A DNA stretch of 56,299 bases from Fibrobacterota bacterium (GTDB lineage Bacteria > Fibrobacterota > Fibrobacteria > UBA11236). The notes beneath the pieces were generated by a model. That model worked only from the letters and a program-made list of their open reading frames with translations, was not told the DNA's origin and did not search any database. A program made the position numbers and the translations under genes. The DNA lies in NCBI GenBank assembly GCA_028287505.1, contig JAQBPN010000023.1:1-56299 (forward strand), written 5' to 3'. This document shows, in pieces, positions 13,513-32,464 of the stretch (within the stretch, counting starts at the first letter, position 1; every line of letters begins with the position of its first letter).

Positions 13513-15207
13513 TCAATCCGGGATGGCCGGCGAGGCTTCCTCCGGTCCGGACGGATCTTCGGAATCCGGCCGGGAGATGCGCCTTAGGGTCTCGATATGC
13601 TTGCGGAAGCTTCTGCGGGCCTTGGATTCCGTCGCCAGCTTGGACAGGGGCAGGAAGAACAGCTTCAACCGGACCAAGACCCGGATGGGCCCGATGACCT
13701 TGATCAAGCCACGGTCAATCAGGTAGCGGATCAGATCCCCGAAGAGAACGTTCCAGATGAAAATATTGATGCCCGCGCCGAACAGGAACGCGTTCCTATG
13801 GGCCAGGATGAGATGATGCTCCTTGTTGTTCAGGCGGGGATGCTTGTAACTGGCTTGCAAACGCTTGAATCCGATGCGCTCGTAGATCGGCAGGAGTTCA
13901 TCCACCGCGGAAGTCAGGAGCCAGTGCCGGTCGGACATCAGGAAATGCTTCAACCCGTGCTCGAACAGGCCCTGCAGCAAATCGGTCCCGCGGTATTCAT
14001 CATGGATGCATAAGCGCGAGACTTCGATGAGATTGGCCTTGGGAGGGATCTTCACCGGGTACTTCCGCCCGGGAAAGCCCGTCTGGCTGTCCAGCATGGT
14101 GTCTTCGTTGGAGGGAAAGGTGAAGGTCATGGTGCCCACCAGGCGGCCGCGGTGATGGGCTATGAGGATGCGGCTGATTCCGTCCAGCGGGGTCGCCATT
14201 TCCTCGGGCGTGGTGCCGTGGAACCTTTTTCCGGCCCCCACGTACGCATCCCTGCGCAAATGCAGTACCTGGGCATATTCATCCATGGTCCGCACGGCCC
14301 GGAAGCGCAGATGGCTTTTGACGTGCCGGGCCTGGAAGCCTTCGTCCTTCAAGCGCTGGGGAGTCCATTGCTGGGAATGGAGCAGGAATCCGCAAATGGA
14401 GTTATGCAGGTTCCATTCCATGGCCAGGCAGACTACGCCGAACTTCACCGAATGGGCTTCCGTGGCGTGCACCCAGATTACCCGGGCCGTCATGGGTACG
14501 TTCCGGAATGAAGCGAGGTCGAAATGGATTTCCAGCTCCATGCCTTCGAAGACGAGGATGGAGTGGTCATTGCTGTGGAAGGAAAGGCCCATGTCCTTGT
14601 TGACGTCCGAAACCGACATGGGGGACCAGTGGCTGAAAATGAAAGGATGTTTGACCCGCGCCCTGAGGGACAGGGAAGGGGACAGGGCCAAGCGGGACGC
14701 GATGCGGCGATCGTATTCCACCGACTGGGCGGTCGCCACGTCCATGCGCCTGAGGCCTATCCGGATGCCTTCCTTCCAGGCGGTCTTGTTCTTCACCTGG
14801 CACCAGACCTGGAATTCCTGGCCGGGCCTTACCCGGATGCGGATTTGGATATCATCTCCTTCGGAGAGATGCAGGCGTTGCGCCTCCTCTTCCGGTGCGC
14901 CGGCCATGGGCTCCGGCCGTTGATAGAGGATTCCGAAGGAGATCGAAGTGAAGTCCCAGAGCTTGACGGGTATCCAGGTTTCCTTGCCGGGTTCGCGGAT
15001 TTCCATCGACACGTTCCCGAGTTCCCGTTGGGATATCCGTTCCTGGCTCCTGTGTTCGAAGGTTCCGGGGAACTTGAAAATGCCCGTGGCAAGCTTGGAC
15101 ACGTCCACCGGCGAACCCTTGGACCAATCTCCGCGGATGCCCGGGGAGGCCGGATCCTGGACCAGGCCGGGTTGGCGTTTCAAGGTTTTGACGGACTTTT
15201 TTCCCAT
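13513..15207 (-). CDS. PilZ-like / FeeM-like N-acyltransferase protein (paralogue 1)
   Basis: 564 residues. The N-terminal half has PilZ-like sequence: R57-I-S-Q-R61 fits RxxxR, but the second motif is D85-F-T-S-I-S90 instead of DxSxxG, so c-di-GMP binding may be weakened. A second PilZ-like stretch follows (about 190-290). The C-terminal half (about 310-480) resembles the FeeM N-acyl amino acid synthase/autoinducer-synthase branch of the GNAT superfamily: LRRDAYVGAGK, then E395-V-S-R398 in LIEVSRLCIH, then YRGTDLL and LLPIYERIGFKRL. LuxI-type synthases keep a comparable E-x-S-R. Such enzymes acylate amines from acyl-ACP or acyl-CoA; the substrate here is unknown. Third gene of an operon, 29 bases after the diiron oxidase. 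Family assignment is by motif only. Confidence 0.75.
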   Translation of the reverse strand: MGKKSVKTLKRQPGLVQDPASPGIRGDWSKGSPVDVSKLATGIFKFPGTFEHRSQERISQRELGNVSMEIREPGKETWIPVKLWDFTSISFGILYQRPEPMAGAPEEEAQRLHLSEGDDIQIRIRVRPGQEFQVWCQVKNKTAWKEGIRIGLRRMDVATAQSVEYDRRIASRLALSPSLSLRARVKHPFIFSHWSPMSVSDVNKDMGLSFHSNDHSILVFEGMELEIHFDLASFRNVPMTARVIWVHATEAHSVKFGVVCLAMEWNLHNSICGFLLHSQQWTPQRLKDEGFQARHVKSHLRFRAVRTMDEYAQVLHLRRDAYVGAGKRFHGTTPEEMATPLDGISRILIAHHRGRLVGTMTFTFPSNEDTMLDSQTGFPGRKYPVKIPPKANLIEVSRLCIHDEYRGTDLLQGLFEHGLKHFLMSDRHWLLTSAVDELLPIYERIGFKRLQASYKHPRLNNKEHHLILAHRNAFLFGAGINIFIWNVLFGDLIRYLIDRGLIKVIGPIRVLVRLKLFFLPLSKLATESKARRSFRKHIETLRRISRPDSEDPSGPEEASPAIPD

Positions 15208-15236
15208 ATTAGCGGACCGGCCGGTTCATTGCGGGT

Positions 15237-15947
15237 TCAGGAAGCCCGCACCTTTGCTTTTGTCGTTACCAAATCCGCCGGACGCCAATCGTGCTTGCCT
15301 GCGGCTTCGTCCATGATTCCCTGCAGCATGATTCCGTAAAGCTTGCACGATCCGGTGGCCACATGGATGACGGCCTCGAGGTCCTCTTCAGTCGCGATGG
15401 CTTCCCGGAAGTTCTGTTCCAGCCACTTGGTGTGGCCCACATCCGCTTCGGCATGCTCGGTCAGGAAGGACATGGCGTTTTCCGGTACGCCGATGCCGGC
15501 AAGGCTCTTGATCAGATGTTCGCCTTTTCCGGAGGCGAGCATTTCCAGATGGAAGACATAGCCCAGATAAGAGGCGGGTTTGCCTTGGTGGATATGGTAG
15601 ATGGCGAATGCGATCAGGGCTTCGGTAGTGGCCAGCGGCCGCCCATCGGGAAGGCCGGAGACATCCACGCCCAGCGCGCCGAGATCCGCCAGGGCCAACT
15701 CATGGTGTCCGTATTCGGCCGCGCAATGGCGGAAGATACGCTTGGATATGTCGCGTTGCCCGCCCTTGAGGTGGCCGGCCATCAGGGCGAAGGATGTGGG
15801 GTTTTCCCGGGTATTGTAATAGGTCTCGCGCAGCCAGATCTTGTAGTGTTCCAGCGTGAGGGTGCCGTCCTGCATGCGGCGGAAGAATTCTCCGGACAGC
15901 AGATCCGCCTGGGCGCGTTTCCATTCGGTGCGGATGGTTTCAATCAT
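15237..15947 (-). CDS. Haem-oxygenase-like diiron oxidase (iron-containing redox enzyme family)
   Basis: 236-residue all-helical protein of the family that includes UndA, CADD and related oxidases, which use a dinuclear iron site to oxidise or fragment small substrates. Candidate ligands: Glu41 (RETYYN), His81/His82 (EYGHHE), Glu135 (GYVFHLEM), and the signature H165-x3-D169-x2-H172 in TEHAEADVGH. The ATG lies inside the end of the upstream gene (8-base overlap), with GGAGAAGG as binding site, so translation is coupled to paralogue 2. The next gene follows after 29 bases. Being sandwiched between two acyltransferase-like proteins suggests it modifies an acylated product, for example by oxidative decarboxylation or desaturation; this is inference. 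Confidence 0.8.
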   Translation of the reverse strand: MIETIRTEWKRAQADLLSGEFFRRMQDGTLTLEHYKIWLRETYYNTRENPTSFALMAGHLKGGQRDISKRIFRHCAAEYGHHELALADLGALGVDVSGLPDGRPLATTEALIAFAIYHIHQGKPASYLGYVFHLEMLASGKGEHLIKSLAGIGVPENAMSFLTEHAEADVGHTKWLEQNFREAIATEEDLEAVIHVATGSCKLYGIMLQGIMDEAAGKHDWRPADLVTTKAKVRAS

Positions 15948-17502
15948 TGACTTTTTCCTTCTCCAGGGCTTTCCGGACCTGGGCCCGGAATTGTTTCTCC
16001 AACCTTCTTTTGATCCAATGTTTGGCGAATCCTCCCATGATCGCCCGGTAATAAAGAACGACGTTCCGCCAGGTGGATAAAGTGAGGAGCCGCTTATCCA
16101 GCAGGTCCCGGATCAATTCGCCATAAAAATATTCCCAATCGAGGGGGTTCAGCCCCATCCCGTTGGTGACGGTATGCGTATCCAGGGCGATGAGATGGTG
16201 CCGGATATTGTTCAGGGACGGGACCGAAGTGGTGGCCCCGGTTTTTCTGAAGCCGAAGCGCTGGTATAAAGGAAGCAATTGATCGGTGACCAGGGTAATG
16301 GCCCAGCGTCGATCGGAAAGGATCAGGCAGCGCAAGGCATGGACCATCATCCCCTGGAAAAGATCGCCGCCGCGGAAATCCTTGTGGGTGCATAGGGAGT
16401 GTGCCTCCAGCAATTTCCCCTTGGGAGGAATGGCCACGGGATACTTATTTCCGGGAAAGGAATCCTCGGAGCGGAGGCGGAAGGAGTCATTGTTCGGGAA
16501 AGTCAGCGCCAGGCTGGCCACCATGGTGTCGTGATGGAAAGCGGCCAGGATCCGGCTGTATTTGTCCGTCATGGAGGCCAATTGCTCCACCTCGGTGCTT
16601 TCATCCCTCTTTCCCGCATAGACATAGGCATTGCGCCTGAGTTCCAGCACCTGCTCGTATTCATGCTGGGTGGAGATGAAGCGGAAGCGCAATTGCTCCT
16701 TGAACCGTTTCAACATGATTCCGTAGCGGGGGAGATCCCCCGGACTGCATCCCCAACTCTGCAGGAGATATTCGCCGACCGCATTGCTCAACTCGAAGGG
16801 AATGTCGGACCACCGGACGGAAAAGAGGATGCGATCTCCTTCCCTCACGCTGGTCCATACGATATCGCCCGAACACATTCCTCCGTTTTCCATGGGCAAT
16901 TGGATGAAGAGGCGCAGGGTGTGGCCGGGGAGCAGCAGCAAGGCCGTATCGGAAGACTCGAACACCCACTCATTTCCGGGTCCTATTCCGATCAACCCGG
17001 CATCGGCCCATTCATCGTACAAGAACGGGTTCGCCACCTTTACGTCCACGGGATTTTCACGATTACTCAGGTAGTTTCCGGGGAATCCCATGGATGCCGG
17101 TTCCATCAGGCTTTGGATATCCATTCTCCGCAAGCCAAGCCGGAGGCCCTTGCCGGGCAGCCCGGTATTCTTGATCCTGCACTTCACGATGGATTCGGTT
17201 TTCAGGTGATCGACTATTTTCAACTGGACGTCTTCGCCAATCAGCGCCGAAAAGGGTTTGCCGGGAATCGAATCGTATTGGATCCCGAAGCCCAGCACGG
17301 AATAGTCGCGTAGCTTCACGGGAGCCCATTGCGGATATTTCACCGATTTGACCCAGGCGGGAATGCGCTCCAATTCCCGCTCACCGATGCGCTCGCCTTT
17401 CCGCTGGTTTTCAACTTCAAAAGGCCGCCATGATTCCGGCGGAAGCTTTTGCAGATCGAGGCCGATGGCATCGATCGGTTCACGGTTGTCGTTGTTTTTC
17501 AA
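15940..17502 (-). CDS. PilZ / FeeM-like protein (paralogue 2, altered synthase motif)
   Basis: 520 residues, same architecture as the protein at 13513-15207. The PilZ motifs are canonical: R38-I-G-E-R42 and D66-Y-S-V-L-G71, predicting c-di-GMP binding. In the FeeM/GNAT-like half the usual E-x-S-R is E366-A-H-S369 (LLEAHSLCTH), so the conserved arginine is lost while YRG-like (FRGGDLF) and LLPLYQRFGF are kept. It may be a regulatory partner rather than an active synthase. The start used is TTG at 17500-17502; no clear binding site is visible and the true start is uncertain. First gene of the operon, overlapping the diiron oxidase by 8 bases and divergent from the histidine kinase at 17698. Confidence 0.72.
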   Translation of the reverse strand: MKNNDNREPIDAIGLDLQKLPPESWRPFEVENQRKGERIGERELERIPAWVKSVKYPQWAPVKLRDYSVLGFGIQYDSIPGKPFSALIGEDVQLKIVDHLKTESIVKCRIKNTGLPGKGLRLGLRRMDIQSLMEPASMGFPGNYLSNRENPVDVKVANPFLYDEWADAGLIGIGPGNEWVFESSDTALLLLPGHTLRLFIQLPMENGGMCSGDIVWTSVREGDRILFSVRWSDIPFELSNAVGEYLLQSWGCSPGDLPRYGIMLKRFKEQLRFRFISTQHEYEQVLELRRNAYVYAGKRDESTEVEQLASMTDKYSRILAAFHHDTMVASLALTFPNNDSFRLRSEDSFPGNKYPVAIPPKGKLLEAHSLCTHKDFRGGDLFQGMMVHALRCLILSDRRWAITLVTDQLLPLYQRFGFRKTGATTSVPSLNNIRHHLIALDTHTVTNGMGLNPLDWEYFYGELIRDLLDKRLLTLSTWRNVVLYYRAIMGGFAKHWIKRRLEKQFRAQVRKALEKEKVND

Positions 17503-17697: not shown

Positions 17698-19854
17698 ATG
17701 GAAAAAATCTATTCGAATAAAATCTGGATGTCCTTCATCCACTTCATGGAGAACCGTTACGGCAAGAATTTGACGGACGTGGTCCTCCAGGAGGTGGGGG
17801 CGGACCGCTTGGCTTTGGCGGATACCAACGGGTTCCAGCCGAACGATTTCGGCGTCCGGTTGATTGAATCCGCGATCAAGCACACGGGGAATCCGGAGAT
17901 ATCTTACCTGTCCGGCAAGTCCCTGGCGGATAGCCTGGGAAAAGTGGGCGGATTCGTGATTGGTCTGACCTCCCCGTCTTTGATCATGAAGTTGATGGGA
18001 CAGATAGAGGGGAAAATGGCCCTCAATACCATCACCAAAACGGAGTTGACCGGAAAAAACAAATACAAGGTGACGGTTTCCTTCCGCAATGGCTTCCAGG
18101 AAAGCATTTACGCCTGCCAGAACAGGATCGGAAGCTATGAGTCCGGTCCCCGCTTTTTCGGCCTTCCTTACGCCCAGGTCGAGCATACCGAATGCGTTTT
18201 CCTGGGAGGCAGCCAATGCAGGTACCTCGTCACCGTGCCGGAATATGGATTCCTGGTTTTGAAAAAAATCGCCGTGGGGCTAGGCGTCGCGGCGGCAGTC
18301 TTGGGAGCCTACGCATGGCTGGGCTCCCATCCCCAAGCATCCCTGTGGACCTCGATTGCAAGCCTGTTCGCCGGCATGGGTTGTTACTCGTATTACAAAC
18401 ATCGCCAGGCCAAGGGCTCTTTGGAATGGACCCTGCTCGGGAATGAAAGTCTATCCAAACAGAACCGGGAACTGGAAAAGAACAACACGGAAATCACATC
18501 CCTCCAGAATCTGACCCTGACCTTGGGGCAGACGCCGCGTGTCCAATCGATATGCGAAGTGGTGGTTTCCACCTTGGTGAAGGATTTCAAATACGGCTCC
18601 AGCCAGCTTTGGCTTCTGGATGAGAAGGGCGCGTATCTGTCCAACAGGTCCGCCAAAGGCTACACGGACGAACTGAACTCTTTCATACGCGACACGAAAT
18701 TCGAAATGGGAGTCGGCTGGGACAATCCCTACGGCCTATTGATACAGACATTGGAACAAAGGAAAACTCTCCTTGTGAACGATGTGGAGGCGGCTTTGGA
18801 AAAGCTGTCCTCCCGCACGCGCGAGTTCATCGAGACCTTGCATCCGTCGTCCTTCATCATCACGCCCTTGTTCCACGACAATGCCCCAATCGGGATCCTC
18901 ACGGCGGAGCACCATGCCGGCGGGAAACTGGACAACAAGGACAAGCTTCTGTTCCAATCGATTTCCAACATCGTCGCGAATGCCCTTGTCAAAGCCGAAC
19001 TGTTCGAGGGTATGGAAAGGAAAATCGAGCAGCGTAGCCGGGACTTGGAGGCGGTGAACCGGCAATTGCTGACGGCAATGGAAATGGCGATCCAGAGCGA
19101 AAAGCTCTCTTCGCTCGGCCAGATGGCCGCCGGCGTAGCCCATGAAATCAACAACCCGCTCAATTTCCTGGTCAACATCATTCCGGACGTGCGCCGGGAC
19201 GTGGAAGGACTGGAAAAGATCCGCGAGTTGGCCGGGCTTGCCGGATTGAGCGGGGATATCGCCCGCAAGATAAAGGAAGTTGATGATCAGTACGATCTGC
19301 AATCCCACCTTGAGGAAAAGAATTTCGTATTCGAAAAGATCCAGAAGGCCTTGGACAAAAGCACCCGTATCGCCAACAGCTTGAAGGTCTTTTCGCGTTC
19401 ATCTTCCAAAGAGCTGGTGGCCCGGGAGAGCTTCGCCACCATGGTCAAGGAGGTCATCGATTTGGTGCCGCAAACGGTGCGCGGGGACACTCGCATCGAA
19501 GTGGCGATTCCCGAGAACCTGGGCTGGGCGGTGAACAAGAACGAGATGGAACAGGCCTTCCTGGTCCTGGTCAACAATGCCATTGATGCGATGGGCCAAA
19601 AGGGGTGCCTGGAAATCCGCGGTTCCGAGGCTCCGGAGGAAATCATCCTGGCCTTCCGGGACGAAGGCCCCGGCATCCCGGAAGCGTCATTGAAAAAAAT
19701 CTTCGATCCCTTCTATACCACGAAACCGCCGGGCAAGGGCACGGGATTGGGCCTCACCATTGCCGCGGAAATAGTGAAGAAGTATGGCGGGGCCTTGGGG
19801 GTGGATTCGGCTCCGGGCGAAGGCGCCACATTCACGATTCGTTTCCGCAAGTAG
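17698..19854 (+). CDS. Sensor histidine kinase with V4R-like and GAF domains
   Basis: 718 residues. The N-terminal about 180 residues form a sensory domain ending in ECVFLGGSQCRYLV (Cys166, Cys174), the pattern that closes V4R/XylR-N-like domains, which bind small hydrophobic ligands. Two hydrophobic segments follow (about 185-205 and 215-230), then a GAF domain (about 275-440), a coiled coil, and the kinase core: His482 in GVAHEINNPLNFL, N-box NNAIDAMG, and DEGPGIPE/GTGLGLTI. It has no REC domain; a possible phosphorylation partner is either nearby REC protein (20960-21631 or 24588-25289). It is divergent from the PilZ/FeeM operon, 195 bases apart. No clear Shine-Dalgarno precedes the ATG. 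Cytoplasmic placement of both ends is likely. Confidence 0.85.
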   Translation: MEKIYSNKIWMSFIHFMENRYGKNLTDVVLQEVGADRLALADTNGFQPNDFGVRLIESAIKHTGNPEISYLSGKSLADSLGKVGGFVIGLTSPSLIMKLMGQIEGKMALNTITKTELTGKNKYKVTVSFRNGFQESIYACQNRIGSYESGPRFFGLPYAQVEHTECVFLGGSQCRYLVTVPEYGFLVLKKIAVGLGVAAAVLGAYAWLGSHPQASLWTSIASLFAGMGCYSYYKHRQAKGSLEWTLLGNESLSKQNRELEKNNTEITSLQNLTLTLGQTPRVQSICEVVVSTLVKDFKYGSSQLWLLDEKGAYLSNRSAKGYTDELNSFIRDTKFEMGVGWDNPYGLLIQTLEQRKTLLVNDVEAALEKLSSRTREFIETLHPSSFIITPLFHDNAPIGILTAEHHAGGKLDNKDKLLFQSISNIVANALVKAELFEGMERKIEQRSRDLEAVNRQLLTAMEMAIQSEKLSSLGQMAAGVAHEINNPLNFLVNIIPDVRRDVEGLEKIRELAGLAGLSGDIARKIKEVDDQYDLQSHLEEKNFVFEKIQKALDKSTRIANSLKVFSRSSSKELVARESFATMVKEVIDLVPQTVRGDTRIEVAIPENLGWAVNKNEMEQAFLVLVNNAIDAMGQKGCLEIRGSEAPEEIILAFRDEGPGIPEASLKKIFDPFYTTKPPGKGTGLGLTIAAEIVKKYGGALGVDSAPGEGATFTIRFRK

Positions 19855-19873: not shown

Positions 19874-20980
19874 ATGGTGAGATCGGTATCCAGGCATGTC
19901 TCAATGCGGCTGACCATCCTGGCCCTGTCATTGATATCCGCCGCAAGCATAAGCGGAGAGCTTTCCCCCTGCAAATTCAATTTCGGCATGTCCTGGCAAG
20001 GTCCCGATTACGCCTATCCCGCCCAAGTGGACTATGTGACCCTGTGGGCGGGAGGGGACGAGAACTTCAATATCTATTGGGACGGCGCCATGCTCAACGC
20101 TTGCAAGCCGGGCGGCAAACAGGCGGGCCGCACGCCCGTCTATTACAGTTACATCATCGCCTTTACCGCGCGTCGGGACCTGGGCCTCAAGGATTGCGAC
20201 GTGGGCACCCCCAATCTGTGCCAACAGGGCGCGGATTTCATCAGGCAAAAGAAAGCGCGCATTCTTTCCCAGTACGACAAATACGCTTCGGAAGCCGCCA
20301 AGGTGTGGGGAACCCGGGACCCCATCATCTGGATGATGGAACCGGATTATTACCAGTACGCCTCGGGCAACACCCAGGTCGGAGGGCCAATCACCTACGC
20401 TGAAGCGGGCGCCTTGATGGATGAGATTCTGGCGACCGTGAAAAAGAGCCTGCCGAACGCCGTCTTCTCACTCGACATCTCGCCCTGGGTTTCCAATCCC
20501 ACCGCCTGGTATGCAGCCTTCAAGATGGATGCCTTCGCCTACATCAACACCTCAGGCGGCCGCACGGACGCCGATGATGCGCGCATCCGCAAGGAGAACA
20601 CCATGACCTGGAAAGCCGTCCATGAGCTGACCAGGAAGCCTATCATAGCGGATGACGGGTATGGGGTGGCGGGCGCGTCCATTGGCCACGACTCGACCTG
20701 GGACAAGTCCGTGAATCTGAATGCGCGGATAGGGGATGGGGTGGTGGCGATTACCCAGGCCAATCCCAGGGTGGACTGGAACGGGGTGCTGGCGGGAGTG
20801 CGGGGGCAGTTGGTGGCGGTAAGTTGCCAGACAGGTATCCGGTTGGCGCCGACGCACCAAAGCGGGAGCCGGGGTTTGCTTCAGATCCTGAGCGGGCCGG
20901 AATTCTCCAATTCCGATGGTCGCAATGTTTTGGGACGCGTGCTTCCGATGCCCGATAAATCACCAGTCGAACGCCAATAG
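19874..20980 (+). CDS. Secreted glycoside-hydrolase-like protein, function unproven
   Basis: 368 residues from the ATG at 19874 (GGGAGG upstream), 19 bases after the kinase stop, so probably cotranscribed. N-terminal signal peptide (LTILALSLISAASISG), then a mature domain with TIM-barrel-like strands: IIWMMEPDYYQY (possible acid/base Glu after a strand), VFSLDISPWV, AFAYINTSGG, and KPIIADDGYGVAG near the C-terminus. In clan GH-A enzymes the last position usually carries a nucleophile Glu; here it is Asp, so hydrolase activity is uncertain. Paired cysteines suggest export. The 3' end overlaps the convergent REC gene by 21 bases. I do not recognise the exact family. Confidence 0.65.
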   Translation: MVRSVSRHVSMRLTILALSLISAASISGELSPCKFNFGMSWQGPDYAYPAQVDYVTLWAGGDENFNIYWDGAMLNACKPGGKQAGRTPVYYSYIIAFTARRDLGLKDCDVGTPNLCQQGADFIRQKKARILSQYDKYASEAAKVWGTRDPIIWMMEPDYYQYASGNTQVGGPITYAEAGALMDEILATVKKSLPNAVFSLDISPWVSNPTAWYAAFKMDAFAYINTSGGRTDADDARIRKENTMTWKAVHELTRKPIIADDGYGVAGASIGHDSTWDKSVNLNARIGDGVVAITQANPRVDWNGVLAGVRGQLVAVSCQTGIRLAPTHQSGSRGLLQILSGPEFSNSDGRNVLGRVLPMPDKSPVERQ

Positions 20981-21631
20981 CCCCTGGATCATCGCCAAAT
21001 ACTCTTCGCCCTTTTTGTCGAAATCCACGGGCTTGTTGATGAATTCGTAGAAGCGATCCTTCCTTAAGGACCGATACATGAGATCCCCGTCATGGTTGGG
21101 ATTTCCCGTCATGAGGATGAATTTCATATTGGGCTTGGCCTTCTTGGTCTCATCGCAAAGCTCATTGCCGCTCAGCCTGGGCATCACTTCGTCCGTAATC
21201 ACCAAGGCTACCTGAGGGCTGCGGATGATATAATCCAGGGCTTCGACCGGGTCTACGAAGGTTTTCAGGTTGAGGCTTTTTCCGAAACGACGTTTGAAAA
21301 TGAAGATGTTTTCCGGTTCATCATCGACGTATACAACTTCACTGGCACTGCGCTTCTCAAACCCTTTATCGAGCAGGTAATCGCAGAGTTCGCCGAGGTT
21401 TTTGAATACCTGCAATTTCTCGATCAGACCCGGCGGTACTTTGAAAGTCTTCGTCGGGATCCTTGCCTCCAAAAAGGGAAAGAACTCCTGGCCGGAAAGC
21501 ATGTCGATTTGCAATTCTTCGAGCGAGGACCCCCAGTCCGGTTTTTCGGGCAATGGGGTTATGGTGTCATCGGAACCAGAAACTTCCAGGCTGATGGTTC
21601 TGAGCACTCTGTAGATTTCATCGCGATTCAT
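20960..21631 (-). CDS. Response regulator with degenerate acyl-carrier-like N-terminal domain (1)
   Basis: 223 residues. The N-terminal about 90 residues resemble an acyl carrier protein (LEELQIDMLSGQEFFPFLE...LGELCDYLL), but the position of the phosphopantetheine serine in the D-S-L motif is Met, so it should not carry a prosthetic arm. A REC domain follows (VVYVDDEPENIF; phospho-acceptor Asp147 in VITDEVMPRLSG; FINKPVDF). There is no DNA-binding output domain. The start ATG follows AGGGTAAG, four bases after the stop of the alpha-oxoamine synthase, so the two form an operon. A sister protein lies at 24588-25289. It may act as a protein-interaction switch on an acyl-transfer enzyme; this is inference. 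Confidence 0.8.
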   Translation of the reverse strand: MNRDEIYRVLRTISLEVSGSDDTITPLPEKPDWGSSLEELQIDMLSGQEFFPFLEARIPTKTFKVPPGLIEKLQVFKNLGELCDYLLDKGFEKRSASEVVYVDDEPENIFIFKRRFGKSLNLKTFVDPVEALDYIIRSPQVALVITDEVMPRLSGNELCDETKKAKPNMKFILMTGNPNHDGDLMYRSLRKDRFYEFINKPVDFDKKGEEYLAMIQGLLAFDW

Positions 21632-21635
21632 TGTC

Positions 21636-22940
21636 TTACCCTTGGATTAAGGAATACCGGTATTCTTTACTGAATGTTTTCCAGATTTGGGATATGGCTT
21701 CCTCGTCTTTTCCGATAATATCATAGGCGGCACTTTTTATCGCATCAACAAAATTTTCGATGTCCGTTTCCCGTGTTTGGCGGTTGACCATAAAACGTAA
21801 TCCAGAATGGTGAGGGCCCACAGCCGGAAAGTGGGCGACATTCAGCCAGAATCCCTTTTTAATGAGAATCTTGGCGATCTCTTGGGCCTTTCCGGTAGGA
21901 CCGATTCCCAGGAACCGAATAGGTGAATTCACGGCCGACATCTGGGGCAATGGCTGATTATCCAATGCCTTGGTCATAAAGGCCATCTTGTCCCGCAATT
22001 CGTGTTGCAAGGATTCAAAATCGTCGCGTAAATGGATCTTGGCGGATTCGATGCCCGCGCCCAGAAGCGGCGGTTGTATGGGTCCGGAAAAAATCTGCGT
22101 GCCTCCGCAATTCCGGATCAACTGTTTCACTTCGTTGTTGGGGAGGATCATGGCTCCGCCTCCGGTGCCGAATCCTTTGGCCAGACCTGTCAGGACGTAA
22201 AGCCGTTCATGCTTTTTCATATTGTCCAGCACGTAGCCGCAACCGCGCTTTCCCATCCAGCTCATGCCATGGGCATCATCGAGGTAAAGGTGGAACTGCT
22301 CATAAGTATTCAGTAAGTGCTCCAATTCAGCGACCGGAGCGAAGTCCCCATACATGCTGTATACGCCGTCGCCCAAGTACCAGATTTTCTTTTTGGTATC
22401 CTTGAACGCTTTGATTTTGCGCTCAATCCTGGCCACATTGGAATGGGATATGATTTCGATTTGGACGCCGTTCGCCTTCAGCACCTTCGAGGCCATCTGG
22501 ACGCTGCTGTGGACCTGTTGATCCATCAGAACCACATCATCCGGGCTTACCAGCGTCGGAAGCGCGGCCAGATGGGCGAGCGTGGTAGTGGAAGCCAAAA
22601 GGGTAGGACTTTGGAAAATGTTTTCCAGGAGGCCTTCCAACTTGGGGTACATGGGATTGGATAAATAAGAGCGTGAAGAGGAGAACTGGATCCCATAATT
22701 CCGGATGGCTTCAATGCCTCCTTCCCTGACGCGTGGATCGAATTCCAGGCCCATATAACCGCACGAGCCGAAGTTTATCAGTTCTTGGCCATTGACAACG
22801 ACCGAATGTCCGTTATGCTGGCTGCCTTGGTCCACTAGTTGGATCAATCCATGGGATCTGGCTTGGTTGATGTAGCCGTTTATCTGCTGGATGGGACTTA
22901 AATCTTTGGTTTCCGCTGTCGGATCGGAGCCAGTCCGCAT
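21636..22940 (-). CDS. PLP-dependent alpha-oxoamine synthase-like enzyme (KBL/BioF/SPT/CqsA fold)
   Basis: 434-residue fold-type I PLP enzyme of the family that condenses an amino acid with an acyl thioester and releases CO2 (BioF, Kbl, serine palmitoyltransferase, CqsA). Seen: FGSCGYMGLEFDPRV near the N-terminus, the FSSSRSYLSNP substrate region, LDDAHGMSWMG (Asp that pairs with the pyridine nitrogen, plus His), and Schiff-base Lys255 in LTGLAKGFGTGGG. Start ATG has AGGAAAT upstream. First gene of an operon with the acyl-carrier-like response regulator. No other biotin, threonine or sphingolipid genes are nearby, so a primary-metabolism role is not supported and a CqsA- or SPT-like signalling or lipid role is plausible. 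Confidence 0.85.
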   Translation of the reverse strand: MRTGSDPTAETKDLSPIQQINGYINQARSHGLIQLVDQGSQHNGHSVVVNGQELINFGSCGYMGLEFDPRVREGGIEAIRNYGIQFSSSRSYLSNPMYPKLEGLLENIFQSPTLLASTTTLAHLAALPTLVSPDDVVLMDQQVHSSVQMASKVLKANGVQIEIISHSNVARIERKIKAFKDTKKKIWYLGDGVYSMYGDFAPVAELEHLLNTYEQFHLYLDDAHGMSWMGKRGCGYVLDNMKKHERLYVLTGLAKGFGTGGGAMILPNNEVKQLIRNCGGTQIFSGPIQPPLLGAGIESAKIHLRDDFESLQHELRDKMAFMTKALDNQPLPQMSAVNSPIRFLGIGPTGKAQEIAKILIKKGFWLNVAHFPAVGPHHSGLRFMVNRQTRETDIENFVDAIKSAAYDIIGKDEEAISQIWKTFSKEYRYSLIQG

Positions 22941-23023: not shown

Positions 23024-24586
23024 ATGTTGAATAAACCCTCTTTTACCGGCCTAGTCGGCAAAGCCGTCGGTTTTCTGGCAAAGCTGCCTGTATTAAAGCG
23101 CTTGGTATTCAATCGCGATTACTCCTACCTGATGAGGCTCGGTACCGTCCTCTTGTGGGTGGGCGGACCATCGGAAATATTCTTCTATTGGTATGAATCT
23201 TCCCAGGGATACTGGGACTCGCTGCAAATCCGGTTCCTGGCGGCGATAGGAATGGCTTCCCTGGGAGTCGTGGACTGGAGAACGGTCAAAGGTTGGCTCC
23301 CCAAGGTCTACTGGGAACTGGTCTTGTTCATAGCCTTTCCTTTCCAATCCACCATGGCGCTGCTGCACAATGGAGCCATCGACTATTACTTCACATCCCA
23401 ATGCGCAATGTTTTTCATCCTGGGGATGATGACAAAAGCCTGGATGATTCCGGTTCATATCGTGATTGGAAGCGGTCTTTCGACCTTGGGCTATTTTCTC
23501 TGGTACGGATGGGACGCGAAGCTGTTGGCGCATAGCCTGCCTGCCCAGGTGAATGCGATGTTCTGCGGAATCGTGTCCGCTTCCATCATGCTCGTGCTGG
23601 AAAGTTACCACCGGAGAATCACCGAAGCGAAGGTGGCGCTGGCCAAGGCGGAGGAAACGGAAAAGGCTTACGAGGAACTGAAGATCCGCGAGGAGCTCAT
23701 CCGCATCTACGTCCGCCCCTCCCTGGTCGAAGAGATCCGCGCCGGCAAGGACCCTTCCAAGTCCCAGCCCGTCATCCGCAACCTCTCCATCATGTTCTGC
23801 GACATCCGCGACTTCACAAAGCTTACGGAAACCCTGACGCCCTATGAACGCCAGATGTTCCTCAACCAGTATTTTTCCATGATGACGCGCCCCATCGTGG
23901 ACAACGGCGGCGAAGTCGACAAGATCATGGGGGACTGCGTCATGAGCGTATTCCCGGACGGCGCCACGGCCGTGAATGCCGCCATCTCCATGCGTCTGGA
24001 GCTGCAGAAGTTCAACGAGACCATGTTCAAGGCCGAAAGCCCCATGATCCGCAACGGCATCGGCATCGCCAAGGGCGACGTCATGCAGGGGAATTTCGGT
24101 TCCTTCGAGAAGCTGGACCGCACCGTCATCGGCGAGGCCGTGAACATCGCTTCGCGCCTGGAATCCAAGACCAAGATGTATAACCTGGACGTGGTGGTCA
24201 CCGAGGACGTGATCAGGGACATGCCGGCGGGATCCGCCCATTACCGGTGGATTGACAACGTGCAGGTGAAGGGCTCCACCCGGCATATCAAGCTTTACGA
24301 AATCTACGGCCATCAGCCCCCGGAGGTACGCCAGTACAAGGACGATACCCGGGAATTGCTGGAAAAGGCTTTGATGATTTATTTCCAAAAAGGGTTCCGG
24401 GACGCTTCCCGGCTGTTCCGGGCCATGTTGGAGAACGTGCCGCCCCACCGCCTCATCGCCAATGATCTGATGGACAACATCCTCCGCTACTACATCGCCC
24501 ATTGCGATGCCTGGATCAATAATCCCAATGGAACCTGGGAGGAGATTCAGCGTTGGGAGGGCGTGCATGTTTTCACGGAAAAGTGA
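23024..24586 (+). CDS. Membrane-bound class III adenylate/guanylate cyclase
   Basis: 520 residues. About six hydrophobic segments in residues 35-200 form a membrane domain, followed by a short coiled coil (KVALAKAEETEKAYEELKIREEL) and a class III cyclase domain. Metal-binding residues are Asp260 in MFCDIRDFTKL and Asp304 in KIMGDCVMSVF; Lys300 and the Thr in LDRTVIGEAVNIASRLE favour ATP as substrate. A C-terminal extension (about 130 residues) ends in QRWEGVHVFTEK. The ATG at 23024 follows GTGAGG. It is divergent from the alpha-oxoamine synthase (83 bases) and convergent with the second acyl-carrier-like regulator, one base apart. A decayed copy of its last codons lies at 25455-25519. Confidence 0.9.
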   Translation: MLNKPSFTGLVGKAVGFLAKLPVLKRLVFNRDYSYLMRLGTVLLWVGGPSEIFFYWYESSQGYWDSLQIRFLAAIGMASLGVVDWRTVKGWLPKVYWELVLFIAFPFQSTMALLHNGAIDYYFTSQCAMFFILGMMTKAWMIPVHIVIGSGLSTLGYFLWYGWDAKLLAHSLPAQVNAMFCGIVSASIMLVLESYHRRITEAKVALAKAEETEKAYEELKIREELIRIYVRPSLVEEIRAGKDPSKSQPVIRNLSIMFCDIRDFTKLTETLTPYERQMFLNQYFSMMTRPIVDNGGEVDKIMGDCVMSVFPDGATAVNAAISMRLELQKFNETMFKAESPMIRNGIGIAKGDVMQGNFGSFEKLDRTVIGEAVNIASRLESKTKMYNLDVVVTEDVIRDMPAGSAHYRWIDNVQVKGSTRHIKLYEIYGHQPPEVRQYKDDTRELLEKALMIYFQKGFRDASRLFRAMLENVPPHRLIANDLMDNILRYYIAHCDAWINNPNGTWEEIQRWEGVHVFTEK

Positions 24587-24587
24587 T

Positions 24588-25289
24588 TTAGAAGAAATCG
24601 CCCGATAACACTTTGTTCATCGACTCGAAATATTCCTCGCCCTTCTTGTCGAAATCCAAAGGCTTGTTGATGAAATCGTAGAAGCGCCCATGGCGCAGGG
24701 AACGGTGCATCAGGTTCTCGTCCCCGCCGGGATTACCGGTGATGAGCACGAATTTCAGGAACGGCTTGGACATGTGCACCTGGTCGCAAAGCTGGTTGCC
24801 GCTCATGCCGGGCATGGACTCATCCGTCAGCACCAGCACCACGTCCGAATTATCCTTGATAAAGGCCAGGGCCTCATCCGGCTTGGAAAAGGTGCGCAGG
24901 TTGACGCGCTTGGCGTAACGGCGGCGGAACACGAAGAGGTTTTCCTCTTCATCGTCCACGTATACCACCACGGGATTCTGGATGCCGTGATGCAGGCTGG
25001 ACTGGATATGCCGGACCATGTCGCCGATGGTGGAATATTGGTTTTGGCCCGAGGAGGTGCCTCCGAATGCCTTTTGCATGCGGTACATGAGTTCCACGTT
25101 CAGGGCGATGCCCCCTAGGCGGTTGCGCAGTTCCTTGGCGAGTTCGCCGATGTTGGCGTCGGTTACGTGAAGAGCTTCCAGGGTGGTGCTTTGGTCGATG
25201 ACCGAAGGTAGGGACGCGAAAGAAGGATTCTCACGGGACAGACTTGAGAACACCTCTCGCAATATGGCGAGGACGCGATCAGATTGCAA
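24588..25289 (-). CDS. Response regulator with degenerate acyl-carrier-like N-terminal domain (2)
   Basis: 233 residues, paralogue of the protein at 20960-21631. The N-terminal region again looks like an acyl carrier protein (TTLEALHVTDANIGELAKEL...IGDMVRHIQ), with Thr-Asp in place of the Asp-Ser phosphopantetheine site. The REC domain carries VVYVDDEEENLF, phospho-acceptor Asp156 in VLTDESMPGMSG, ITGNPGGDENLMHRSLR and FINKPLDFDKKGEEY, nearly the same as its sister. No output domain. Convergent with the cyclase, and upstream of it lies the remnant of a second cyclase in the opposite direction, suggesting that a [regulator-cyclase] unit was duplicated. Confidence 0.8.
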   Translation of the reverse strand: MQSDRVLAILREVFSSLSRENPSFASLPSVIDQSTTLEALHVTDANIGELAKELRNRLGGIALNVELMYRMQKAFGGTSSGQNQYSTIGDMVRHIQSSLHHGIQNPVVVYVDDEEENLFVFRRRYAKRVNLRTFSKPDEALAFIKDNSDVVLVLTDESMPGMSGNQLCDQVHMSKPFLKFVLITGNPGGDENLMHRSLRHGRFYDFINKPLDFDKKGEEYFESMNKVLSGDFF

Positions 25290-25777: not shown

Positions 25778-28700
25778 ATGCCTGCAAAGACCGCCCCTCT
25801 GCCCAAAGCTCCCGCATCACGCGCCGCCCAGGCCCCCAACGGCCATTCCAAAGCCCATACCGGCCCGGCCAACGGCAACGGCCATAACGGCAATGGCGGG
25901 CACACGGGCCTGGACAAGAAAAAGCTCTTGCAGATATTGGAAGCGTTCAAGCAAGGCGACTTCAACGCCAAGATGGACGAGGACTTCGGCGGACTGGACG
26001 GAAAAATCTGTTCGGTTCTCAACGACGTGATAGACATGAACCGGCGCCTGGTCCGGGAGCTGGAAAAGGTCAACCGGGTGGTGGGCAAGGAAGGCAAGAT
26101 CAGCCAGCGCATCGCCATGGGTCCGGTGGAAGGGGCCTGGTCCGAGGCACAGGATTCCATAAATGGTTTGATCGATGATCTGGTCTGGCCCACCACGGAA
26201 ATGTCCCGCGTGATCGGCGCCGTGTCGAGCGGCGATTTGTCCCAGACCGTGGCCGTGGAAGCGGAAGGCCGCCCTTTGAAGGGTGAATTCCTGCGTTCCG
26301 CGAAGACGGTAAACACCATGGTGAGCCGTTTGAGTTCCTTCGCATCGGAAGCCACGCGCGTGGCCCGTGAAGTGGGATCGGAAGGCAAGCTGGGCGGCCA
26401 GGCCGAAGTGAAAGGCGTGTCCGGCACCTGGAAGGATTTGACCGATAACGTGAATTTGATGGCCTCCAATCTGACCGGCCAGGTGCGTAACATCGCCGAA
26501 GTGGCCACCGCCATCGCGAACGGGGATTTGTCCAAGAAGATTACCGCGGAAGCCAAGGGCGAAATCCTGGAATTGAAAAATACCGTGAATACCATGGTGG
26601 ATCAGCTGAACTCATTCGCTTCGGAAGTGACCCGTGTGGCCCGTGAGGTGGGATCGGAAGGCAAGCTGGGCGGCCAGGCCCAGGTGAAGGGCGTGTCCGG
26701 CACGTGGAAGGATTTGACGGATAACGTGAACTTCATGGCCGGTAACCTTACGGGCCAGGTGCGCAATATCGCGCAGGTGACCACGGCCGTGGCCAACGGG
26801 GATTTGTCCAAGAAGATCACCGCCGAGGCCAAGGGCGAGATCCTGGAGCTGAAGGAAACCATCAACATCATGGTGGATCAGCTGAACTCGTTCGCCTCGG
26901 AAGTGACGCGCGTGGCGCGCGAGGTGGGCACGGACGGCAAGCTGGGCGTGCAGGCCGAAGTGCGCGGCGTGGCCGGCACCTGGAAGGATTTGACCGATAA
27001 CGTGAATCTGATGGCCTCGAACCTGACGGGCCAGGTGCGTAACATCGCCGACGTGACCACGGCCGTGGCCAAGGGCGATTTGTCCCGCAAGATCACCGTG
27101 GACGTGAAGGGCGAAATCCTGGAGCTCAAGAACACCATCAATACCATGGTGGATCAGTTGAACTCGTTCGCCTCGGAAGTGTCGCGCGTGGCGCGCGAAG
27201 TGGGCTCGGAGGGTAAGCTGGGCGGCCAGGCGGATGTGAAGGGCGTGGGCGGCACCTGGAAGGATTTGACGGACAACGTGAATTCCATGGCCGGTAATCT
27301 TACGGGCCAGGTACGCAACATCGCCCAGGTGACGACGGCGGTGGCCAACGGCGATTTATCCAAGAAGATCACCGCCGAAGCCAAGGGCGAGATCCTGGAG
27401 CTGAAGGAAACCATCAATACCATGGTGGACCAGTTGTCCTCGTTCGCCTCGGAAGTGTCGCGCGTGGCGCGCGAAGTGGGCTCGGAGGGTAAGCTGGGCG
27501 GCCAGGCGGATGTGAAGGGCGTGGGCGGCACCTGGAAGGATTTGACGGAAAACGTGAACTCGATGGCCGCCAACCTTACGGGCCAGGTGCGCAATATCGC
27601 CCAGGTGACGACGGCGGTGGCCAATGGCGATTTGTCCAAGAAGATCACTGTGGACGTGAAGGGCGAAATCCTGGAGCTGAAGAACACCATCAATATCATG
27701 GTGGATCAGTTGAACTCCTTCGCCTCGGAAGTGACGCGCGTGGCGCGCGAGGTGGGCACGGAAGGCCGTCTGGGCGGCCAGGCGGAAGTACGCGGCGTGG
27801 GCGGCACCTGGAAGGATTTGACGGACTCGGTGAACTTCATGGCGGGAAACCTCACGGGCCAGGTGCGTAACATCGCCGAAGTGGCCACCGCCATCGCGAA
27901 CGGAAACCTTTCCAAGAAGATTACGGCGGAAGCCAAGGGAGAAATCCTGGAGCTGAAGAACACCATCAATATCATGGTGGATCAGCTGAACTCGTTCGCC
28001 TCGGAAGTGACGCGCGTGGCCCGCGAGGTGGGCACGGACGGAAAGCTGGGCGGCCAGGCCGAAGTGAAGGGCGTGGGCGGCACCTGGAAGGATTTGACGG
28101 ACTCGGTGAACTACATGGCCGGTAATTTGACCTCGCAGGTGCGCAACATCGCCGAAGTGACGACGGCCGTGGCCAACGGGGATTTGTCGAAGAAGATCAC
28201 CGTGGACGTGAAAGGCGAGATCCTGGAATTGAAGCGTACGATCAATACCATGGTGGATCAGCTGAACTCGTTCGCCTCGGAAGTGACGCGCGTGGCCCGC
28301 GAGGTGGGCTCGGAAGGCAAGCTGGGCGGCCAGGCGGAAGTGCGCGACGTGGGCGGCACCTGGAAGGATTTGACGGACTCGGTGAATTTCATGGCCTCCA
28401 ACCTTACGGGCCAGGTGCGTAATATCGCCCAGGTGACGACGGCGGTGGCCAACGGCGATTTGTCGAAGAAGATCACCGTGGACGTGAAGGGTGAGATTCT
28501 GGAATTGAAAAATACCATCAACACCATGGTGGATCAGCTGAACTCGTTCGCCTCGGAAGTGTCGCGCGTGGCGCGCGAGGTGGGTTCGGAAGGCAAGCTG
28601 GGCGGCCAGGCCCAGGTGAAGGGCGTGTCGGGCACGTGGAAGGACTTGACCGATAACGTGAATTCGATGGCTTCGAACCTTACGGGCCAGGTGCGCAATA

Positions 28701-31700
28701 TCGCGGAAGTGACCATCTCGGTGGCCAATGGCGATTTGTCCAAGAAAATCACCGTGGACGTGCGCGGCGAGTTCTTGCAGTTGAAGGACACCATCAATAC
28801 CATGGTGGATCAGCTGCGCGCCTTCGCCTCGGAGGTGACGCGCGTGGCGCGCGAGGTGGGCACGGAAGGCAAGCTGGGCGGCCAGGCATACGTGCAGGGC
28901 GTGGCCGGCGTGTGGAAGGACTTGACCGATAACGTGAATTTCATGGCCTCCAACCTTACGGGCCAGGTGCGTAATATCGCCCAGGTGACGACGGCCGTGG
29001 CCAACGGGGATTTGTCGAAGAAGATCACCGTGGACGTGAAGGGCGAGATTCTGGAATTGAAGAACACCATCAATACCATGGTGGATCAGCTGTCCTCCTT
29101 CGCCTCGGAAGTGTCGCGCGTGGCGCGCGAGGTGGGTACGGAAGGCAAGCTGGGCGGTCAGGCCCAGGTGCGCGGCGTGGGCGGCACCTGGAAGGATTTG
29201 ACCGATAACGTGAATTTCATGGCCGGTAACCTGACCAACCAGGTGCGCGGTATCGCCAAGGTGGTGACCTCGGTGGCCAACGGCGATTTGAAACAGAAGC
29301 TGGCGTTCGAAGCCAAGGGCGAAATCGCCTCCTTGGCCGATACCATCAACGGCATGATCGATACCCTGGCGACCTTCGCCGACCAGGTGACGACCGTGGC
29401 CCGCGAAGTGGGCGTGGAAGGCAAGCTGGGCGGCCAGGCATCCGTGCCCGGCGCGGCGGGAACATGGAAGGGCCTCACGGATAACGTGAATCAGTTGGCC
29501 GCCAACCTTACGACCCAGGTGCGCGCCATCGCCGAGGTGGCGACGGCCGTGACCAAGGGCGATTTGACCCGCTCCATCCAGGTGGATGCCCAGGGCGAGG
29601 TGGAAGCCTTGAAAGACACCATCAACCAGATGATCGTGAATCTGCGCGAGACGACGCTGAAGAACGCCGAGCAGGATTGGCTGAAGACCAACCTGGCCAA
29701 GTTCACCCAGATGTTGCAGGGCCAGAAGGACCTGCTCACCGTGACCAAGCGCATCCTGGCCGAATTGGCGCCGGTGGTGGCCGCCCAGCATGGCGTGTTC
29801 TACCTGGTGCAGTATACGGACCAGGAGCCGGTATTGAAGCTGATGGCGTCCTATGCCTATAAGGAACGGCGCCTGGTGGCCACGGAGTTCAAGATGGGGG
29901 AGGGCCTGGTCGGCCAGTGCGCGCTGGAAAAGGAGCGCATCCTTCTCACCAATGTGCCTACCGATTACATCATGATCAATTCGGGACTGGGGGAGGCGCC
30001 GCCTCTTTCCATCATCGTGCTGCCGGTTATTTTCGAAGGCCAGGTGAAAGCGGTCATCGAATTGGCGTCCTTCGAACGCTTCAACGCCACCCATCAAACC
30101 TTCCTGGAACAGCTTACGGAATCGATCGGTATCGTGCTCAACACCATCGAGGCCAACATGCGCACGGAGGACCTGTTGAAGCAGTCCCAGTCGCTGGCCC
30201 AGGAACTCCAGTCCCAGCAGGAAGAATTGCAGCAGACCAACGAAGAGCTGGAGGAAAAGGCCAAGCTGCTGGTGGAGCAGAACGCGGAAGTGGAGCGCAA
30301 GAACCGCGAAGTGGAACAGGCCAAACAGGCCCTGGAGGAAAAGGCATCCCAGCTGGCGCTGACTTCCAAGTACAAGTCCGAGTTCCTGGCCAACATGTCC
30401 CACGAGTTGCGCACTCCGCTGAACTCCCTGCTCATCCTGGCGCAGCAGCTGTCCGACAACGTGGAAGGCAACCTGCACACCAAGCAGATCCAATTCGCCC
30501 AGACGATTTATTCCGCCGGTTCGGATCTGCTCACCCTCATCAACGACATCCTCGATCTGTCCAAGATCGAATCGGGAACGGTCACGGTGGATCCCACCGA
30601 CGTGTCCTTCAACGAAATGCGGCAGTACGTGGAACGGACCTTCCGCCACATGGCGGACAACAAAAACCTGGAATTCCGCATCACCATCGAGGACGATCTG
30701 CCCAGCTACATGAACACGGACGTGAAGCGCCTGCAGCAGGTCGTCAAGAACCTGCTGTCCAACGCCTTCAAGTTCACGGATCGCGGCCGGGTGGACATGC
30801 GCATCCAGTTGGCAAAGAGCGGCTGGAGCCCATCCCAGAACATGCTCAACCGCTCCCGGCACGTGGTGGCCTTCTCGGTCACCGATACCGGCATCGGCAT
30901 CCATCCGGAAAAGCAACAACTCATCTTCGAGGCCTTCCAGCAGGCCGACGGAACCACCAGCCGCAAATACGGCGGCACGGGTCTGGGGCTTTCCATCAGC
31001 CGCGAAATCGCGCGTCTGCTGGGCGGCGAAATCCGGTTGCGGTCCACGCCGGGCGAAGGAAGCACTTTCATCCTGTATCTGCCCTTGGATTACAAGCCTT
31101 TGCCCTCCGCCGTCAAGAAGACGGAAGACGGGGCCTTCAACCTGTTGCCGGCCCCGGAAACCGGGGAGGGTCCGGAATCGGAAACCTTGTCCAGGGAGGA
31201 GTACGCCAATCGCCTGGTCGACAGGGACAATTGGATGGCGCCGCCCAAACCGCAGCCCGTCACGGACGACCGCGACTCCATCGCCAGCGGGGATCAGGTG
31301 GTGATGATCGTCGAGGATGACGCCAACTTCTCCTATCTGCTTTTGGACGTGGCGCGGGAGAAGGGATTCAAGGGCATCGTAGTGCCTTGGGGCAATTCCG
31401 TGATGACCTTGGCCCGGGAATTCCAACCGGATGCGATTACGCTGGATCTGCATTTGCCGGATATGGACGGTTGGAGCGTGCTGGCGCGCCTCAAGGAGGA
31501 CGCGGCCACGCGCCACATCCCCGTACATATCATTTCCGTTGACGAGGAAAAGGACCGCGGCCTGCGCCAAGGGGCCCTTTCCTTCATCAACAAGCCGGCG
31601 ACGAAAGAATCCTTGAACAACGCATTCGATTCCATCCATGAGTTCATTGCCAAGGGGGTCCGCAACCTGCTGGTGGTGGAAGACAACGTCGATCAGCGCA

Positions 31701-32464
31701 CGGCAATCCTGGAGCTTATCTCCGATCCGGACGTGGAAGTGGACGCGGTGGGAACCGGCGCGGAGGCCCTGTCGCTCATGCGCAGCAAGCATTTCGATTG
31801 CATGGTCATGGACCTGGGGTTGCCGGATATGGACGGGTTCGCCATGATCGAGCAAATCAAGGCCGACCCCGCGCTGCGGGAAGTGCCCATCGTGGTGTAC
31901 ACGGGCAAGGACCTGAGCACCAAGCAGGAAGCCCAGCTCCGCGAGGTGGCGCAGACCATCATCATCAAGGACGTCCGTTCCCCGGAACGCCTGCTTGACG
32001 AAACGGCTTTGTTCCTGCACCGGGTGCAAAAACGCCTGCCGGAGCACAAGCGCAGGATGCTGGAGCAGTTGCACCAGTCGGACGCGTTGCTCCAAGGCAA
32101 GAAGGTGCTGGTGGTGGATGACGACATCCGCAACATCTTCGCCATGACCAGCCTGCTCGAGCGTCATGGAATGGAGGTCATCACCGCCGAGAACGGCCGG
32201 GATGCCGTGGAAATCATGGGCAAGGGCCTTCACATCGACGCGGTGCTGATGGACATCATGATGCCGGAAATGGACGGGTACGACACCATGCGGGCCATCC
32301 GCCAGATGCCGCAATACCAGGCCCTTCCCATCATCGCCCTCACCGCCAAGGCCATGAAGGGCGATCGCGAGAAGTGCATCGAGGCCGGCGCATCGGATTA
32401 CATCTCCAAGCCCGTGGACACGGATCAATTGCTTTCCCTGCTCCGGGTCTGGGTGTACCGCTGA
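25778..32464 (+). CDS. Giant poly-HAMP hybrid histidine kinase
   Basis: 2228 residues with no transmembrane segment, so probably cytoplasmic. A disordered N-terminus rich in Pro/Ala/Gly/Asn leads to one divergent HAMP unit and then 12 near-identical 92-residue units (residues 192-1295), each with two HAMP-like halves, as in group III (Nik1-type) kinases. Then come GAF (about 1310-1460), a long Gln/Glu coiled coil, HisKA with His1542 in [13 protein letters not shown], HATPase ([18 protein letters not shown]) and three REC domains with phospho-acceptors Asp1890, Asp2012 and Asp2159. AGGAG precedes the ATG. The stop overlaps the CheR start by one base, and a second hybrid kinase follows. Group III kinases sense osmotic or physical stress; the stimulus here is unknown. 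Confidence 0.93.
26351..29662 (+). repeat. Twelve tandem 276-bp HAMP-coding repeats
   Basis: Each unit is 276 bp (92 codons) in exact register, starting at VTRVAREVG or a close variant (26351, 26627, ... 29387). Units differ mainly in a few codons: TVNT/TINI/TINT, AEVKGV/AQVKGV/ADVKGV, SEGK/TDGK/TEGR, ITAEAKG/ITVDVKG. Units 4 and 5 share long identical DNA stretches, suggesting recent duplication or conversion. The last two units (11-12) are more divergent and lead into the GAF domain. Confidence 0.95.

Follow-up and report, generated by a model that had tools for sequence, protein, structure and literature searches.

A window of 56,299 nucleotides, the whole stretch of DNA analysed here, comes from a metagenome-assembled genome of a Fibrobacterota bacterium (contig JAQBPN010000023.1 of assembly GCA_028287505.1) and carries three consecutive genes, which encode two related proteins, called P1 and P2, and between them a haem-oxygenase-like diiron oxidase (HDO):

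15940..17502, minus strand: P2, the first gene of the cassette, with a TTG start (open reading frame list); tandem PilZ-like barrels and a FeeM-like GNAT domain
15237..15947, minus strand: HDO, the haem-oxygenase-like diiron oxidase
13513..15207, minus strand: P1; tandem PilZ-like barrels and a FeeM-like GNAT domain

P2 and HDO overlap by 8 bases (15940-15947), and a gap of 29 bases (15208-15236) separates HDO from P1. The coordinates, strand, overlap and gap had been given by an earlier, sequence-only reading of the locus and proved exact on re-checking; the motifs it quoted are all present in P1 and P2. The P2-HDO-P1 arrangement is a real, conserved and lineage-specific cassette, and it is not a chance pattern, because it recurs in seven P1 and seven P2 orthologues, the set on which the motif comparisons below are based. 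While the components were already known, their combination, a PilZ-FeeM pair with a dedicated diiron oxidase, appears to be new. Compared genomes and compared loci are coded G0xx and L0xx, respectively.

P1 and P2 are paralogues (33% identity, E about 1e-85), for which PilZ-like N-terminal and FeeM-like C-terminal halves had been proposed. The best profile match of P1 is FeeM (E 8.3e-12, 45.6 bits, Pfam cut-off 27); its second barrel matches PilZ (E 1.2e-5, 26 bits, cut-off 22.5), and the protein additionally matches Acetyltransf_5 (4.5e-5). The window P2 lies below every Pfam cut-off, PilZ included, and does not match the FeeM profile at E<=1. Among its orthologues, barrel 1 passes the PilZ cut-off in G001, G003 and G005, and 11 of the 12 aligned P1/P2 rows, most P2 orthologues included, match FeeM at E<=0.1, so that the C-terminal halves are FeeM-related, as had been proposed, and not foreign to that family. 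No profile match to the LuxI autoinducer synthases was found in P1 or P2, and E-x-S-R occurs in P1 only, not in both.

The AlphaFold (AF2) models (mean predicted local distance difference test scores of 79.1 for P1 and 81.6 for P2) contain a pair of beta-barrels and a GNAT domain, with a conserved helical region at the C-terminus. In Foldseek searches, FeeM (2g0b) was matched by P1 (E 7.6e-7, TM-score by target 0.71, 14% identity) and by P2 (E 1.4e-6, 0.63), together with many other GNATs and with the two-barrel receptors of cyclic di-GMP (c-di-GMP) PP4397, VCA0042, MotI and MrkH; P1 matched PP4397 in complex with c-di-GMP (E 1.3e-6), and P2 matched MotI and VCA0042. These receptor matches identify the N-terminal halves as YcgR-like double barrels and not single PilZ domains; the low TM-scores (0.3-0.4 by target) are what would be expected of barrels oriented differently towards each other. 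Thus, the proposed families are borne out by profiles and folds, but each protein has two barrels instead of one.

The nucleotide-binding motifs are unequally distributed over these four barrels. Barrel 1 of P2 carries RxxxR and DxSxxG in 7/7 orthologues, with D66-Y-S-V-L-G71 and two overlapping RxxxR (34-38 and 38-42) in the window, the invariant one being 34-38 and not 38-42, as named earlier; barrel 2 of P2 has neither motif. Barrel 1 of P1 also keeps RxxxR in 7/7, but DxSxxG in G002 only (a perfect D-F-S-A-I-G), the sequence being D85-F-T-S-I-S90 in the window and mostly DFTS-I-[SG] among orthologues. Barrel 2 of P1 retains RxxxR (168-172) and D201-x-N-x-x-M-G207, the D-x-N-x-x-M-G being kept in all copies examined, so that P1 may sense too. 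The complementary motif loss previously described is, therefore, a real and conserved asymmetry, but it is spread over both barrels and the degeneracy of P1 is not universal (G002). Judged from these motifs, the division of labour between the barrels of P1 and P2 is real, but more even than had been stated.

In the acyltransferase domain, a glutamate of strand beta4 (E395 of P1, E366 of P2) is invariant in 14/14 paralogues. It is followed by V-S-R in all seven P1 proteins (E395-V-S-R398 in the window) and by AHS, VHS, ING, VIS, VNS or INC in P2 (E366-A-H-S369 in the window). By way of L070, another Fibrobacterota protein, it aligns with the glutamate of the 'AEVVQ' segment of FeeM 2g0b: L070 and 2g0b align at E-V-V-Q, whose glutamate is residue 96 counted in the chain and is taken as the published Glu95. 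In Nas354, a fusion of PilZ and an N-acyl amino acid synthase (NAS), Glu103 is essential and E103A abolishes the phenotype (PMC4897644). The strong FeeM proteins of the same phylum (1e-36 to 1e-43) have E-[IVL]-G-[AS] together with an N-terminal PilZ (L070-L072) or E-L-T-N (L073); canonical FeeM proteins altogether show E-V-V-Q, E-[IVL]-G-[AS] or E-L-T-N, and none E-x-S-R. As canonical proteins do without S-R and P2 keeps the glutamate, E-A-H-S fits FeeM chemistry as well as E-V-S-R does; P2 also retains the LRRxAYV region. The sequence-only reading had noted E-A-H-S in place of E-x-S-R in P2 and had suggested that there may be one active synthase and one sensor. The dead-enzyme reading is weakened accordingly: a division into active and inactive members is possible, but the motif it rested on gives it no support. 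A catalytic His in P2, by analogy with serotonin acetyltransferase, was also considered and rejected, the position being H, N or I among the orthologues.

The substrates of characterised haem-oxygenase-like diiron oxidases are amino acids, peptides or fatty acids. The membership of HDO in this group, already proposed, is upheld by its match to PF14518 (Haem_oxygenas_2; 8e-22, 78.3 bits, cut-off 28.9) and by a complete ligand set; profile matches also include PDB 3dde (2.1e-30), MboA (2.6e-7), CADD (8e-5) and 4-aminobenzoate synthase. The 3H/3C ligands (E78, H81, E135, H165, D169 and H172) correspond to the set described for MboA and its family (PMC13185094 for MboA; PMC13108848); neither they nor E41 vary among six orthologues. 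Complete and invariant ligands make a functional diiron site likely.

The phylum survey comprised 168 Fibrobacterota genomes, six of which, the window genome included, belong to the genus in question. P1 and P2 occur together in 6/6 genomes of the genus and the full cassette in 5/6 (HDO lies between P1 and P2 in four of the five other genomes), with two whole cassettes side by side in G004. In the phylum, P1 and P2 are restricted to this genus, apart from remote relatives in one other genus, while HDO is confined to it, always between P1 and P2 and never without them. In the tree, P1 and P2 form separate clades with full support. The functional linkage of the three genes, suggested earlier, is backed by profiles, folds and conserved synteny in the genus. 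Outside the phylum, a scan of genome contigs for the cassette returned the same genus only.

Two further loci deserve mention. In G003, an extra broken copy, made up of one fragment with PilZ alone and one with GNAT (L030 5704-7667), lies between the cassette and EttA and suggests the loss of a second cassette. The relatives in the other genus (G012/G014; L034 5090-6634, L035 2158-4302) keep two PilZ domains, but the glutamate of beta4 is not recognisable in their GNAT-like part; they were rejected as members of the same system and could possibly be true pseudo-enzyme sensors.

Fast local divergence is commonly seen where signalling or the specificity of secondary metabolites is concerned. Between the window genome and G002/G004, EttA and pyruvate carboxylase on the flanks share 92-95% identity, whereas P1 (56-59%), HDO (58-63%), P2 (42-43%) and the neighbouring kinase (60-69%) have diverged much further at the same genomic place. 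The GNAT domain has a mean identity of 47% in P2, compared with 75% in P1. Identities correlate more strongly for P2-HDO (r=0.91) than for P1-HDO (0.61), mainly along species lines, and the P2 and HDO trees share the same split, the second G004 cassette being of the other type for both genes. A perfect co-evolution of P2 and HDO was toned down, since the split tracks species except in that second cassette. As an alternative account, the fast local divergence may represent in-place replacement by gene transfer.

Upstream of the cassette, the window contains several genes related to signalling:

17698..19854, plus strand: sensor histidine kinase, divergent from P2; N-terminal Arabinose_bd-like domain, GAF and HATPase (Pfam)
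20960..21631, minus strand: response regulator with an extra N-terminal domain, in an operon with the alpha-oxoamine synthase
21636..22940, minus strand: pyridoxal phosphate-dependent alpha-oxoamine synthase (BioF/Kbl/CqsA superfamily; NCBIfam PRK07505 4e-83, below its cut-off)
23024..24586, plus strand: membrane class III nucleotide cyclase (Guanylate_cyc 1.5e-17)

The divergent kinase adjoins P2 in 5/6 genomes of the genus, and its Arabinose_bd-like sensor domain is detectable in 5/6 orthologues at E<=0.5 (best 1.3e-5). Response-regulator homologues lie close to the cassettes of G001, G002 and G004 and, in G065, close to a PilZ-FeeM gene. The cyclase has homologues directly divergent to P1 in G001 and, in G064, G065 and G066, which belong to another Fibrobacterota family, directly divergent to single-PilZ FeeM genes, each followed by a methyltransferase. 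In G065, moreover, an island unites a synthase of the alpha-hydroxyketone (AHK) type, a regulator, two kinases, a radical SAM protein, an acyl ligase, a cyclase and the PilZ-FeeM gene. The recurrence of cyclase, regulator and synthase neighbours supports a phylum-level link of PilZ-FeeM proteins with signalling. All these genomes encode GGDEF c-di-GMP synthases, with ten matches in that of the window.

Some details of this neighbourhood may be added. The cyclase-acyltransferase pairing is found at window 23024-24586, L084 5025-7982, L085 5153-8142, L087 7830-10746 and L032 8133-11744. The type of alpha-oxoamine synthase varies by genome, being PRK07505-like, AHK-synthase-like or serine palmitoyltransferase-like (window 21636-22940; L032 4766-5974; L083 16188-17390; L086 5628-6812), and the best model of the G001 and G065 enzymes is the AHK autoinducer synthase (about 300 bits, under the cut-off of 428). 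Two receiver proteins (20960-21631 and 24588-25289) have an extra N-terminal domain of about 85 residues without Pfam match, by eye similar to an acyl carrier protein (ACP) lacking the phosphopantetheine serine. Upstream of the island, positions 25778-32464 encode a sensory protein of 2228 residues, which contains many nearly identical repeats and has kinase and receiver domains at its end.

With about even confidence, the cassette is interpreted as a small biosynthetic unit whose product is an oxidised N-acyl signal or lipid and whose activity is gated by a cyclic nucleotide. P1 and P2 would be FeeM-like N-acyltransferases that acylate an amine or amino acid, with acyl-ACP or acyl-CoA as the probable donor, and HDO would oxidise the amino-acid part (by decarboxylation or desaturation), either ahead of acyl transfer or following it. 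Acyl transfer would be switched by a cyclic nucleotide, c-di-GMP being the simplest candidate, that binds to the first barrel of P2 and possibly also to the second barrel of P1. The product, for which an oxidised N-acyl amino acid is plausible, as had been proposed, may be a membrane-active lipid or a signal, with the divergent sensor kinase as its probable receptor. Donor, acceptor, nucleotide, order of steps and signal role are what we infer from the cassette. Several observations weigh against this interpretation: no characterised synthase is close to either P1 or P2 (the fold match to 2g0b has 14% identity), the S-R of P1 is not canonical for FeeM, the first barrel of P1 and the second of P2 are degenerate, and the correlated identities of P2 and HDO largely mirror how the species are related. 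Furthermore, no HDO is present in G001, where P1 and P2 are split between contigs and P2 is C-terminally shorter, which indicates that P1 and P2 are not strictly tied to the oxidase.

An asymmetric arrangement, in which P1 is the sole active synthase and P2 a c-di-GMP-sensing pseudo-enzyme acting as an obligate partner that regulates P1 or HDO, is possible but rather unlikely. The intact motifs of barrel 1 in all seven P2 proteins, beside the usually degenerate barrel 1 of P1, would fit it, as would the faster evolution of the P2 GNAT domain, the absence of S-R from 7/7 P2, the co-occurrence of both paralogues in all six genomes and the related G012/G014 family, which may hold a real pseudo-enzyme with two PilZ barrels. 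However, P2 keeps the glutamate in every orthologue and the LRRxAYV region, canonical FeeM proteins equally do without S-R, and the motifs of its second barrel would allow P1 to sense as well. It is distinctly unlikely, moreover, that P1 and P2 are ordinary OlsB-like Acetyltransf_5 or plain GNAT acyltransferases under c-di-GMP control, with HDO merely co-transcribed and acting on an unrelated small metabolite. Although P1 matches Acetyltransf_5, Foldseek places many acetyl-CoA GNATs near or above FeeM, and G001 keeps P1 and P2 without the oxidase, FeeM remains the best profile match of P1, HDO is never found apart from the pair in the 168 genomes, and acyltransferase-HDO neighbours recur in gamma-proteobacteria. 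Finally, the barrels might respond to cyclic AMP or cyclic GMP from the neighbouring class III cyclase, instead of or besides c-di-GMP, a proposal favoured by the divergent cyclases of G001 and of the three genomes of the other family. It is considered very unlikely, since c-di-GMP is the ligand of PilZ domains and the motifs here belong to that type, all these genomes are rich in GGDEF proteins, and no cyclic mononucleotide-binding domain was found.

Beyond the gated biosynthesis of an oxidised N-acyl product, a wider and unlikely extension would regard the region as a self-contained, rapidly diversifying signalling island, whose gated acyltransferases and HDO would produce an oxidised acyl signal peculiar to the lineage. 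The kinase and regulators next to the cassette would perceive this signal, which would be coupled to intracellular c-di-GMP and to the neighbouring cyclase; if so, quorum-type and second-messenger signalling would be joined at the level of synthase activity. A syntenic system present in several genomes, with two paralogues of differing barrels and a dedicated HDO, makes c-di-GMP gating of acyl-signal synthesis directly testable. Moreover, if HDO acts on an N-acyl substrate, haem-oxygenase-like diiron chemistry would be extended to fatty amides.

As regards known systems, HDO shares its fold and 3H/3C metal ligands with MboA, UndA, CADD and SznF, and is about 21-31% identical to plasmid-borne homologues. 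The closest of these belong to Vibrio and Pseudoalteromonas operons, in which an acyltransferase-type gene annotated as 'thermostable hemolysin' (T_hemolysin) stands with genes for an AMP ligase, an HDO and a short-chain dehydrogenase/reductase (SDR); on Pseudomonas plasmids, the homologue adjoins a small protein weakly matching FeeM (0.037) and a flavodoxin. These gamma-proteobacterial plasmid loci (L058 2225-5793; L060 3874-7408; L061 5406-6636) differ in having no PilZ, a single acyltransferase and extra ligase and reductase genes. The GNAT profile built here detected no relation of T_hemolysin to P1/P2, so its pairing with HDO is a functional parallel only. A plasmid tblastn search with P1 returned one remote Rhizobium E-V-S-R protein and nothing else; on these plasmids (L062 3807-5762; L063 4395-5762), the FeeM-like protein, with an N-terminal extension, lies beside a flavin halogenase (annotated CmlS), an adenylate-forming enzyme and an SDR, in what is an uncharacterised biosynthetic cluster. 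The CqsA/LqsA alpha-hydroxyketone systems likewise cluster an alpha-oxoamine synthase, a sensor kinase and a response regulator, but here no match to the AHK model reaches the cut-off, and different genomes have different types of synthase. Oxidised N-acyl tyrosines, the stieleriacines, do exist, with other enzymes proposed for them (PMC7293339), and a literature search returned no paper pairing an N-acyl amino acid synthase, or thermostable hemolysin, with a haem-oxygenase-like protein.

Within the phylum, L070-L072 resemble the cassette in having PilZ N-terminal to FeeM (FeeM E 1e-36 to 1e-42) and a divergent cyclase alongside, but they have one barrel, the canonical E-x-G-[AS] and a methyltransferase in place of HDO. 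Nas343/Nas354 (Thies et al. 2016, PMC4897644) also combine a FeeM-fold synthase with PilZ, depend on the beta4 glutamate and have been proposed to be regulated by c-di-GMP. In them, however, the NAS domain is N-terminal and followed by one C-terminal PilZ, a single gene makes N-acyltyrosine and no diiron oxidase is present, whereas the cassette described here has two N-terminal barrels per protein, two paralogues and, in addition, HDO.

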